A stretch of DNA of 33,371 bases from Nitrospirae bacterium 13_2_20CM_2_62_8. Its GTDB lineage: Bacteria > Nitrospirota > Nitrospiria > Nitrospirales > Nitrospiraceae. Below are positions 28,488 through 33,371 of this stretch, piece after piece (position 1 is the stretch's first letter; each line of letters begins with the position of its first letter). The notes under the pieces were generated by a model, which did no database searches, was not told where the DNA came from, and saw only the letters and a program-made list of their open reading frames with translations. The stretch spans positions 1 to 33,371 of the forward strand of contig MNDM01000040.1 of NCBI GenBank assembly GCA_001914955.1, in the 5' to 3' direction. The translations under genes were made by a program, and so were the position numbers.

Positions 28488-28495
28488 GATTGCCT

Positions 28496-31400
28496 ATGTC
28501 ACACGAAGGCACCGGCCGGCCGGCCAACCGTCTCGCCCAGGAGACGAGCCCCTACCTCCTCCAGCATGCGCAGAACCCCGTGGATTGGTATCCATGGGGC
28601 GAGGAAGCCCTCCGGCGCGCGCGGGAACTCAGGAAGCCCATCCTCCTGTCCATCGGCTATTCCGCCTGCCACTGGTGCCACGTGATGGAGCGCGAATCGT
28701 TCGAGGACGAGCGGATCGCCGCGCTGATGAACGAGCACTTTGTCTGCATCAAGGTGGACCGGGAGGAGCGACCCGATCTCGACGAGATCTACATGCAGGC
28801 CACCCTCGCGTTGAACCAGGGACAGGGCGGCTGGCCGATGACCGTGTTCCTGACCCCTGAGCAGGAACCGATCTTCGCCGGCACGTACTTCCCCCCGACA
28901 GACCGCTGGGGCCGGCCCGGCTTTAGCACGGTGCTGCACAAGGTGGCTGAGTTCTGGCGCACGGACCCGGACGGGCTTCGCCGGCAGGCCGCCAATGTGA
29001 CGGCGCGATTGAAGGAACAGATGCGCATCGCCGCGCCGATGGCCGTGGGCGAGGCTGAGCTGGAGGCCGCTGCGGTTCAGTTCGCCGAGGACTTCGACCC
29101 GCGCTACGGAGGCTTCGGCACGGCGCCCAAGTTTCCGCCCGCGACCGGCCTCTCCTTGCTGCTCCGCAGGTACCACAGGATGAACGACCCGCACACGCTA
29201 TTAATGGTGCGGAAAACCCTCGATGCGATGGCGGCCGGCGGCTTGTACGACCAGATCGGCGGTGGTTTCTCGCGGTACTCGACGGACGAACGCTGGCTGG
29301 TCCCTCACTTCGAGAAGATGCTCTACGACAATGCGCTGCTGGCCCGGACCTATCTGGAAGCCTACCAGGTCACGGGCGAGGCCAGCTACCGGCGGGTCGC
29401 CACCGAGACGCTCGATTATATTCTTCGAGAAATGACCGCCCCGGAGGGCGGCTTCTACTCCGCCACCGACGCTGACTCGGAAGGAGTCGAGGGCAAGTTC
29501 TTCGTCTGGACCCCGGAGGAAATTCGCCAGGTGGCGCCGTCGGAAGAAGACGCGCGCCGTTTCTGCGCCTATTACGACATCACGCCCGGCGGCAACTGGG
29601 AGCACAAAAGTATTCCGAACATTCCCCGGTCGTTGGATGATATGGCCAGAGACCTGAAGGTTGCGCCCGATGAGCTCCGCCGCACCCTCGAGCGGCTGCG
29701 ACCGCTCGTCTACGACGCTCGGCGCAAGCGGGTGCCGCCTGGACTGGACGACAAGATCCTCACCGCCTGGAACGGCATGATGATCAGCGCGATGGCGGAG
29801 GGGGCTCGCGTGCTCGGTGACAGCCGGTATCTGGAGGCCGCCGAGCAGGCGGCCGATTTCCTCCTGATGACCATGTCCCGTCCCGACGGGGGCCTGTATC
29901 GAACCTATCGAGCTTTCAAAGCGCACGTGAAGGCCTGCCTCGAAGATTATGCCTTCCTAGCGGAAGGGTTGATCGACCTGTACGAAGCAGGCGCCCACGA
30001 AGGATATCTGCACGAAGCCGTTCGCCTGGCCGAGCGCATCCTCGCGGACTTCGCGGACACCGAACAGGGCGGGTTCTTCACGACCGCGCGAGATCACGAA
30101 TCGCTGATCCTTCGGAGCCGGGAAGGCCCCGACGGCGCCACCCCCAGCGGCAACGCCGTCGCCGCGTCAGCGCTGGCGCGTCTCTCGTTTCACTATGGCC
30201 GCGAGGAGTTTCGGGAGGCGGCCGCCCATGCGATTCGGGCCTATGGCCGGCAGATCGCCCGGCACCCGCGAGCCTTTGCGAAGAGCCTGGTGGTGGCGGA
30301 GCTGCTCATGAACGGCCCGGTGGAATTGGCGCTGGTCGGCCGCCCCGGCGAGGCCGGGTTCGAGGCGCTTCGGGCGGAAATCAACCGGTTCTACCTGCCC
30401 AACCGCATCATCGCGCACCACGACCCTGAGGGACCCGCCACGCGGCATCCCCTCTTGCTCGGCAAAGGATTGGTTCAAGGAAAGGCTGCGCTCTATCTGT
30501 GCCGAAATTTCACCTGCCAGACGCCGATCACAGACCCTGCGGGCGTGGCCGCCGCCTTCACGCGTGGGGACGCGGATGGTCAGACTCGCGCACCGGCTGA
30601 TTCGGCAGCCCACCCCAGGGCATTGCAAGGCACCCGGCTCGCCGGTCATGCCACGCCGGGCGGGACCGGCGCGTACGCCGTCCGCTCGGTCAACAACCCT
30701 GCGTCCGCGGGACTCGCCGCCCACGGGTACGGCATGGTGGGCGCCACCGGTCTCACCGCCAGCCGACTGGGCTTCGGTGGCTATCGGATCGACGCGGACG
30801 AATCGGAGCATCGTGACGCGCTCGCCAAGGCGCTCCGCGAAGGCTGCAATCTGATCGACACCTCCACCAACTACACGGATGGGGAGAGCGAACGACTGAT
30901 CGGCGCCGTGTTGACCGAACTCGTGAGAAAAGGCGAGCTGAAGCGCGAGGAAGTCATCGTGGTCTCCAAGATCGGCTACGTGCAGGGACAAAACCTAAAG
31001 GCCGCCGAGGCCCGGGAGAAGGCCGGCAAGCCATACTCGGAGGTGGTCAAGTATGGCGAGGGCATCTGGCACTGTCTGCACCCCGAGTTCCTGGCCGATC
31101 AACTGGACCTCTCGCTCGACCGCCTGGGCTTGGCCATGCTGGACGTCTGTCTGCTCCACAACCCGGAATATTTTCTCTCAGACGCCAACCATCGCCAGCT
31201 AACCGACTTGCCAAGACTGCGCGACCAATTCTACAAACGAATCATGAAAGCCTTCGCCTATTTCGAAGGCCAGGTCGCGGCGGGGCGCCTCCGGTACTAC
31301 GGGGTGTCGTCGAATACCTGCACCGCGGAGCCGAGCGACCCGGAAGCCACCTCGTTGTCGCGCATGCTCGAGGCGGCCCGGGCCGGAGCGCAGAGCGCCG

Positions 31401-32197
31401 GCTGCGCCACACACCACTTCAAGGTGCTGCAGTGCCCGATGAACCTGTTCGAATCCGGCGCCATGCTGACGCCCAATACCGGCCCGGGGGAGCAGCAGAC
31501 CGTCCTCGACCTGGCTCAGGCGGAAGGCCTGGCTGTCTTGGCCAACCGTCCCCTGAACGCGATTCCGGCGAAAGGCAGCGGGATGGTCCGGCTGGCCGAG
31601 CTGCCGGTCGAGCCCCCAGCCGTCTCGTTCGAGGCTCAGCGCGACAGAATTGCCGATCTCGAAAAAGAATACCGGCGAGAGTTTGTCCCGCACATCAAAA
31701 ACGCCGGGCAGGGGCTTCCGCCGGAGGATTACTTCCGTTGGGCGGACGAACTGGCCAAGGTGCGCGCGCGCGTGCAGAGCATCGAGCACTGGGAGCAGAT
31801 CGAAGGTCAGATGATTGCGCCGCACCTCCATCAAGTACTGCGAGCCCTGAGCCAGCACCTGACCGGTGAGGTGGGCGATCGCTGGCAGGCCTGGCGGGAT
31901 CGGTACCTTCCGGAACTCCTCACGTTGCTGAAGGAGCTGCGCCGGGAGGCGACGGTGAAGAGCCGGGAAAAGACCGCGGCGATCACGAACCTGCTCGATC
32001 CTTTCCTGCCCGAATCGAAACGGAAAGAATCCCTCTCGCGGAAGGCCCTGTGGGTGCTGGCCTCCACCCCGGGCGTCACCTGCGTCCTCAACGGCATGCG
32101 GACGCCGGCCTACGTGGACGACTCGCTGGGGATCCTGGGATGGGAACCGTTGCCGGACGTGCGGCGCATCTATGAGGCGATCAAAAAGTCAGGATAA
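28496..32197 (+). CDS. Fusion of DUF255 thioredoxin/six-hairpin-glycosidase protein and aldo/keto reductase
   Basis: This single 1233-residue frame has two parts. Residues 1-700 match the YyaL/SSP411 family. They include the N-terminal motif [21 protein letters not shown] and a thioredoxin-like domain with C58-HW-C61 ([15 protein letters not shown]), with [13 protein letters not shown] nearby. An (alpha/alpha)6 region like N-acylglucosamine 2-epimerase follows ([37 protein letters not shown]), ending [13 protein letters not shown]. An Ala/Gly-rich linker of about 45 residues leads to an aldo/keto reductase (from about 748) whose tetrad is complete: Asp788, Tyr793 ([12 protein letters not shown]), Lys825 (VVSKIGY), His888 (CLLHNPE). 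A longer-than-usual insertion follows (about 1050-1150), then a [19 protein letters not shown] end. No internal stop or start is needed. The function of each half is unproven, and redox coupling is inference. Confidence 0.88.
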
Positions 32198-32250
32198 GAC
32201 GGAGCTGCCTTCCCTCATCACACACCTGTTTCCCGCATTCCGCCATTTGC

Positions 32251-32279
32251 TTGACAATTCCCCCATTCGGAAATAAAGT
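32251..32279 (+). promoter_or_regulatory. Near-consensus sigma70-type promoter upstream of the right-edge membrane gene
   Basis: TTGACA (32251-32256) and TAAAGT (32274-32279) are exactly 17 bp apart. The start point near 32286 leaves a 5' leader of about 190 bases before the ATG at 32476, long enough to hold a regulatory element or a short upstream frame. Confidence 0.65.
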
Positions 32280-32346
32280 GTGCAGCGTCACAGCAGCACT
32301 CCAGCAGTTTCTTCCGAACTACCCCACAAAAGGAGAGCGGGAGAAC

Positions 32347-32463
32347 GTGGAGCGGGGCATCGCGTTTCAGGCTGCCCCCCTTCATCAGTCCCGGTCTGGC
32401 CGGAGAAAGGATCTCTACGACCGAGCAGACGGGTGTATGGTGAATCAAGGAAATCAGAATTAG
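32347..32463 (+). CDS. Possible 38-residue leader peptide
   Basis: The GTG at 32347 has GGGAG and AAAGGAG stretches upstream, within the long leader of the downstream membrane gene. The frame ends at a TAG (32461-32463), 12 bases before the ATG of that gene. The peptide is polar and basic and matches nothing I know. It could be a translated upstream ORF that couples to the next gene, or noise; only its position supports it. Confidence 0.25.
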   Translation: MERGIAFQAAPLHQSRSGRRKDLYDRADGCMVNQGNQN

Positions 32464-32475
32464 AAAGAGAGGACT

Positions 32476-33371
32476 ATGGAACGCGTACAATGGATCTTGA
32501 ACAATTGGCACCTTGTCTCGGCTGTCCTCGCGGTCGCCGCGTTTGTCATCTTTGACGTCTATGAAAACCGGACAGGCGGCAAATGGTCGCTTCCGATCAA
32601 AGTCTATCTGGGCGCGATCCTGGTTTTGCTCGCCACCATCATGGTGAGCCTGGCGATGCAACATCGGCCTCACATTGATCATCTGCGCGCCCAACTGAGA
32701 GTGGACTATGCCAAGGGCAACCCGTATTTGGAAGACAAGATCGATACGGCTCTGAACAAACTGAAAGATCAGCTCGACGGACAACAATTGGGGACCACAG
32801 CCACCGACATGACGCTTGATGAATTGATCCGAGGCGTCAAACACACCGGCCGCCAAGATCTCATTCTTGCGACTGACTATGGCATTCTTCCTTGGCAGAC
32901 GAGCTTCAGGGATTATCAGGACGCCAATCTCGCTGCGCCCAAACGGGGGGTTGCCGTCACGCGTGTCTTCATCATACCTGATCAGCTCCTCCAAAACGGA
33001 GACCGGCTCACGAGCCTGTTGAGCGCCATGAAGGAACAGAACGAGAATGGAATCACCGTGAAGGTCGCACTCAAGAGTAAGCTGGACCAGCAGCCGAAGT
33101 ATAAATTCAAGCAGGGAATGGTCTTACTTGAGTACCAAAACAGGGAGCCCGTCCTCATGGAGGAATCGAATGGCTACTATGAGACGGGGTACAACGGCTT
33201 TCCGTCGGCCTATACCATGCGCGTGACGTGGGGGGAGGCCAGAGTTCGGGAATATGAGGAGTTTCTGGGCTGGCTCGTTTCCGAAGCACCATCCGATACT
33301 GTGTGTGATTTTGCCCCGACCGAAGAAAAAGAACGCCTCTTGAGAAACAGTGACAATCCATGCCAGCCAAA
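32476..33371 (+). CDS. Two-TM membrane protein with large cytoplasmic domain, truncated by window end
   Basis: The frame is open from ATG 32476 to the last base, giving at least 298 residues. GAGAGG lies just upstream. The N-terminus has two hydrophobic helices (about residues 13-26 and 43-61) separated by a short charged turn, followed by a polar alpha/beta region (about 62-298). That region includes DLILATDYGILPWQTSFRDY, RGVAVTRVFIIPDQLL, GITVKVALKSKL and SAYTMRVTWGEARVREYEEF. I cannot name the family; the RVFII strand plus GI-VKVAL strand pattern recalls PLD-like or sensor folds, with no HKD motif visible. By hand count the lines at 33061 and 33121 have 48% GC, below the neighbouring genes, so the DNA may be acquired. 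The opposite strand also has a long frame (32218-32994), judged a shadow. Confidence 0.75.
   Translation, partial: MERVQWILNNWHLVSAVLAVAAFVIFDVYENRTGGKWSLPIKVYLGAILVLLATIMVSLAMQHRPHIDHLRAQLRVDYAKGNPYLEDKIDTALNKLKDQLDGQQLGTTATDMTLDELIRGVKHTGRQDLILATDYGILPWQTSFRDYQDANLAAPKRGVAVTRVFIIPDQLLQNGDRLTSLLSAMKEQNENGITVKVALKSKLDQQPKYKFKQGMVLLEYQNREPVLMEESNGYYETGYNGFPSAYTMRVTWGEARVREYEEFLGWLVSEAPSDTVCDFAPTEEKERLLRNSDNPCQP

Follow-up and report, generated by a model that had tools for sequence, protein, structure and literature searches.

A predicted phospholipase D fold lacking its catalytic motif on a membrane anchor: an accessory protein of a Nitrospiraceae bacterium

The stretch of DNA analysed here (the window, 33,371 bases) ends in a gene whose product we consider, somewhat more readily than not, to be an accessory, envelope-anchored pseudo-phospholipase D (pseudo-PLD) that is located in the periplasm and acts by binding rather than cutting. 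In the proposed mechanism, two N-terminal helices would anchor the protein in the inner membrane, with a C-terminal PLD-fold domain that probably faces the periplasm. The catalytic His-Lys-Asp set appears to have been lost from this domain, whose role would most likely be to bind, rather than cut, a ligand (phosphorylated or lipid) or another protein. The protein is most likely an uncharacterised, catalytically degenerate variant of the known PLD fold and a rare relative of a common family of helix-turn-helix (HTH) regulators. The features of the region are listed below.

32198..32475, + strand: leader of 278 bases with 54.7% GC, including a sigma-70-like site at 32251-32279 (GC count; shuffles)
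32476..33369, + strand: candidate membrane-anchored pseudo-PLD protein of at least 298 aa, truncated at the contig end (open reading frame; alignment to relatives)
32506..32661, + strand: predicted two-helix membrane hairpin, residues 11-62 (model helices 11-33 and 39-62; hydropathy)
32779..33318, + strand: predicted PLD-fold domain, residues ~102-281, without HxKx4D (predicted structure, fold comparison, motif scan)
32914..32964, + strand: residues 147-163 with the signature Y-x-x-A-N-x-x-A-x-x-R-x-V-x-x-x-R, also present in the HTH family (invariant columns, 32 of 32 rows)
33304..33363, + strand: stretch with the codons of C277 and C296; the C-terminal Cys is common to all four close members (alignment)

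The open reading frame (32476-33369, + strand) is initiated by an ATG with the purine-rich sequence GAGAGGA immediately 5' of it, and continues for 298 codons without a stop up to the end of the contig. The stop codon is missing because the contig ends at 33371. As the window is the entire contig (G000:C5, one of the 86 contigs of a genome that is 72.9% complete), the flank past this position is absent from the assembly. Among 147 genomes searched within the family, three close relatives turned up (in genomes G011, G013, and G024), with 35-38% local identity. In the alignment these end 0-2 residues past the last shared Cys, which is C296 in the window protein, and therefore the window frame is probably nearly complete, just a few residues short. 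It is a genuine open reading frame of at least 298 aa.

None of the models in Pfam, NCBIfam, PHROGs, or PADLOC claimed the soluble domain, and nothing scored above chance. Three weak Pfam rows (DUF3180, PMI_typeI_hel, and SpoU_sub_bind, E 0.08-0.21) and two weak PHROGs rows (E 0.11 and 0.21) were judged to be chance matches. At E-values up to 10, the window protein had no Pfam match to PLDc/PLDc_2 or PLDc_N. Sequence searches against solved structures gave nothing believable either: the profile of the four close members, i.e., the window protein and its three relatives (A2), yielded two rows with a best E-value of 1.1, and the alignment A3 yielded 11 rows of coiled-coil and regulator proteins with a best E-value of 0.14. 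The initial annotation had stated that the domain belongs to no recognised family. This holds for the four libraries, but the fold is recognisable as that of PLD in the AlphaFold model.

The structure prediction and remote-homology search that had been proposed in the initial annotation were carried out, and the predicted structure matched the PLD fold with Z-scores of up to 14.3. From A3, AlphaFold2 predicted a hairpin of two helices plus an alpha/beta domain, with a mean pLDDT of 78.3 and a pTM of 0.65. Queried with this model, Foldseek placed TrmBL2 at the top (E 2.6e-6), followed by numerous phospholipase D structures. With VIA-align, the matches were NucT (Z 14.3, 136 residues, 2.5 A), Nuc (13.9), SauUSI (13.9), TrmBL2 (13.2), FAM83B (12.5), and PPK1 and others, with PLD-type structures filling the list; they fell mostly within residues 88-296 and covered about 130-160 residues. 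Judged from the model, the soluble domain most likely adopts the PLD alpha/beta fold. The profile comparison with 11 motif-bearing Nuc-like proteins of the phylum (A5), which were selected for having the HKD motif and are therefore no blind control, was weak both for A2 (E 4.5e-4, probability 33) and for the HTH set A4 described below (E 8.6e-4, probability 24). Both matches were in register around an A-x-x-RGV helix-strand.

In addition to the close relatives, the search of the 147 genomes gave weak matches, mostly in frames of ~320-345 aa. The members of this weaker set that were inspected carry an N-terminal Cro/CI-type HTH followed by the same PLD-fold domain; in the three HTH-PLD members scanned, Pfam HTH_3 fell just below the cut-off. 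Profile-profile comparison of A2 with the HTH set (A4) aligned 165 columns with an E-value of 1.1e-10 and a probability of 97. Across the 32 rows of A3, with which A4 shares loci, seven residues do not vary: Y147, A150, N151, A154, R157, V159, and R163. One HTH relative is encoded by another contig of the window's own genome (L105:4493-5485 on G000:C83), and its model, built from A4, had a mean pLDDT of 80.9. The C-terminal part of this model matched PLD3 (Z 13.9) and Nuc (13.7), and the N-terminal part matched HigA (9.2). Its gene lies within a fatty-acid beta-oxidation cluster (L105:1131-10001), in which the order is thiolase, 3-hydroxyacyl-CoA dehydrogenase, enoyl-CoA hydratase, patatin, HTH-PLD, beta-eliminating lyase, and acyl-CoA dehydrogenase. 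Among 49 other genomes, the HTH-PLD gene was adjacent to a lyase homologue (at least 100 aa) in 31, to an acyl-CoA dehydrogenase-type gene in 24, to either in 42, and to neither in seven, as counted in flanks of ~1.2-1.5 kb, in which more distant genes are missed; some of the acyl-CoA dehydrogenase-type matches were just ~30% identical. A plasmid search with the HTH relative gave no match. This neighbourhood points to a possible role of the HTH-PLD protein in regulating fatty-acid degradation. It represents an unnamed family that is common in the phylum and worth a study of its own.

Hydropathy analysis of the window protein indicated hydrophobic segments at about residues 7-31 and 37-63, where the AlphaFold model has its two hairpin helices. 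The two N-terminal membrane helices described in the initial annotation, and the architecture of a membrane anchor followed by a soluble alpha/beta domain, were thus borne out; the "sensor-like" character that it attributed to the soluble domain is plausible. The net charge is positive both in the inter-helix loop and after helix 2, so the charges around the hairpin favour neither orientation. Each of the three relatives has a single N-terminal hydrophobic stretch, which the hydropathy cut-off flags in G013 and G011 and not in G024. As seen by eye in the alignment, this stretch ends in a lipobox-like VSSC in G013 and in a signal-peptidase-like AHAD/HAD in G011 and G024. All three relatives also contain a Cys in an LCxVM segment and the C-terminal Cys. 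The first of these two cysteines is missing from the window protein, which instead has C277 alongside C296.

Judging from the relatives, with their N-termini of this kind and their paired cysteines, the PLD-fold domain is probably exported and faces the periplasm. Alternatively, the domain could be cytoplasmic and, in the manner of the HTH-PLD and TrmB-type regulators, sense a ligand while tethered to the membrane and pass the signal to a partner in the cytoplasm. The homology to HTH-fused regulators, presumed to be cytoplasmic themselves, would fit such an arrangement, as would the hairpin, which puts both ends of the protein on one side of the membrane while its charge does not say which. 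The export-type N-termini and conserved cysteines of the three close relatives speak against it, and we give the cytoplasmic arrangement a real but clearly minor chance.

All 58 rows in A3 and A4 (the two alignments share loci) lack the HxKx4D motif, and the window segment 207-235, when read directly, contains no His. In the window protein the motif strand corresponds to residues 215-219, MVLLE followed by YQN, without an Asp. In the HTH set D259 follows the strand 254-258, where the model places the Asp of the motif. The motif positions were mapped by the order of secondary structure elements and by alignment and not by superposed coordinates. The pseudo-PLD reading is based on the missing His and Lys of the motif, a reasoning given for FAM83 in a review (PMC6008594). 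The window protein is accordingly graded as most likely a catalytically dead pseudo-PLD, its loss of catalysis being deduced from sequence. An active enzyme of the PLD superfamily with a non-canonical active site would be compatible with the predicted fold, with the Asp retained by the HTH relatives, and with the many residues that are invariant across the four close members. The model is moderate around residues 231-250 (block pLDDT 53-65), and a displaced active site is therefore possible. However, with the motif missing from every row and no Asp after the window strand, we regard an active enzyme as unlikely.

Among known systems, the unnamed HTH-PLD proteins share the PLD-fold domain of the window protein, by profile and by model, and its YxxANxxAxxRxVxxxR signature, but they have an N-terminal HTH where the window protein has a membrane hairpin, and they keep the Asp at the last position of the motif, which the window protein does not. 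Cardiolipin synthases have an N-terminal two-helix hairpin (PLDc_N) followed by PLD, with two HKD domains. This hairpin-plus-PLD architecture is similar to that of the window protein, which in contrast has one motif-less PLD-fold domain within the 298 aa sequenced and gave no PLDc_N or PLDc match. The single-HKD nucleases Nuc and NucT, with one PLD domain each, are the best structural matches (13.9 and 14.3), and the Nuc-like relatives found in the phylum likewise have the look of exported proteins. Unlike these, the window protein lacks HxKx4D and has a two-helix anchor, and the sequence-profile similarity is weak. A strongly conserved, exported-looking single-HKD Nuc-like protein was observed across the lineage (L107-L114, L116, L117, and L121). 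The HKD PLD family PF13091 was present in 15 of the 21 genomes searched and was not found in the window's genome or its sister G015, both of which are incomplete.

The archaeal regulators TrmB and TrmBL2 match the fold with Z-scores of 11.4-13.2 and use it for regulation. The window protein lacks the HTH of this family and has the membrane hairpin in its place; the part of TrmB that deals with the effector sugar is an additional C-terminal domain (PMC4877046). The pseudo-PLD domains (DUF1669) of FAM83 proteins have the PLD fold but not its full catalytic set (Z 12.5 for FAM83B). The review describes this domain as serving as a protein anchor and as keeping part of the catalytic motif, unlike the window protein (PMC6008594). 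FAM83 is a vertebrate family, and no sequence match between it and the window protein was found. In titles and the beginnings of abstracts on TrmB/HKD, TrmBL2, inactive PLD, HTH+PLD, FAM83, and Nitrospira beta-oxidation, the domain of the window protein was not described.

When A2 was run over 175 genomes of the family, only the four close members were detected at an E-value of 1e-12 or better, in four of 22 genera. The gene is absent from G015, the only other genome of the window's genus among those 175, and the same profile did not detect it in two other genomes of the genus of G024. At the phylum level, A2 found matches in 59 of 395 sampled genomes at an E-value of 0.001, nearly all of them through the weaker set. 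The accessory nature proposed in the initial annotation is therefore supported by the patchy distribution. No relative of the window protein was found among phage (50,697 records) or plasmid (72,556 records) sequences or in viral contigs. A similarity of ~41 residues at 45% to a Paracoccus locus (L031), which showed no other similarity, was attributed to chance and excluded from the alignments.

The GC content of the gene (53.6%) and of its leader (54.7%) is below that of the remainder of the window (62.9%), and just three of 650 windows of 896 nt were as low as the gene (z -3.3). The claim of lower GC in the initial annotation was correct; its hand count of 48% in two lines may be right, as GC varies between 45 and 62% among the gene's 60-nt lines, but is not representative. 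The gene is also lower in GC than its surroundings in G013 (48.8 vs 60.3%) and G024 (54.2 vs 60.4%), so that three of the four copies are clearly low, while the G011 copy is hardly so (64.3 vs 66.8%). The patchy distribution and the low GC suit horizontal spread, and the gene was probably acquired horizontally. The near-consensus promoter assigned to the leader exists as a string, TTGACA-17-TAAAGT (32251-32279), with 10 of 12 consensus matches. The search found one such site, compared with 0.8 +/- 0.8 in shuffled sequences; this is no excess over chance and hence no evidence of a promoter.

The gene upstream (28490-32197, + strand) encodes a protein of 1235 aa in which a DUF255 thioredoxin-fold (YyaL-type) protein is fused to an aldo/keto reductase (AKR). 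Close matches to the AKR half occur in most relatives, for the most part within open frames of ~1,230-1,290 aa, which indicates a widespread fusion rather than an assembly error. Downstream of the fusion, eight relatives have neither the gene (G010 gave fewer than 500 bases) nor a counterpart of the leader DNA, so these regions are no substitute for the missing flank. The loci of the close relatives in G011 and G024 are alike, with an NFACT gene (Pfam) on one side and, on the other, genes that from their translations we take to be for an ABC transporter, cytochrome c, and molybdopterin. The G013 locus differs, with a DEAD/DSHCT helicase (Pfam) and what are presumably glycogen genes, likewise named from translations. 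The neighbours tested at the relatives were housekeeping, generic, or unnamed (e.g., NFACT, an RRM protein, a flavin oxidoreductase, and an SDR), and no partner gene common to the loci was seen. Nor did the window protein closely resemble any housekeeping family of conserved synteny.

The initial annotation regarded the architecture as typical of accessory or defence loci; a link to defence was not supported by these data. The window protein had no PADLOC match; the best, C3a168 at an E-value of 0.11, was judged to be chance. PADLOC returned nothing for eight of 10 neighbours of the three relatives, and the other two are pieces of one helicase. The PADLOC matches of this G013 neighbour (21 and 23 families for the two pieces) were set aside as generic, Pfam identifying DEAD and DSHCT. 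The helicase spans two abutting open reading frames in different frames (L033:9252-12184), possibly due to a frameshift. Membership in a defence or other conflict system with partners past the contig end would suit the patchy occurrence, the low GC, and the combination of a membrane anchor with a possible sensor domain, and the fold matches include PLD nucleases that act in restriction (BfiI, SauUSI, and the NgoAVII R-protein). Against this stand the PADLOC result, the neighbours tested in the three relatives, which apart from the generic helicase are not defence genes, and the lack of phage, plasmid, or viral relatives; we consider such a role quite improbable. Finally, a decaying or assembly-truncated gene without function, as the cut at the contig end of an incomplete genome might suggest, is very improbable, since the frame aligns over nearly its full length with three relatives from other genera without a stop or frameshift and its base composition is uneven across codon positions, as expected of a gene.

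The envelope-anchored pseudo-PLD reading supplies the fold, and a likely way of acting, for a protein that is blank in four family libraries. As a single accessory protein, it is of modest interest in itself. It is tied to a far commoner, unnamed HTH + pseudo-PLD family found among fatty-acid degradation genes. One speculative extension, which we hold to be fairly unlikely, is that the pseudo-PLD domain is a sensor for fatty acids or other lipid-derived ligands with two uses in this phylum: joined to an HTH for the control of a beta-oxidation operon, and joined to a membrane anchor or export signal for binding ligands of the same kind at the envelope. Should such ligands indeed be what the domain binds, bacteria would offer an example of a dead phospholipase D fold turned into a sensor.
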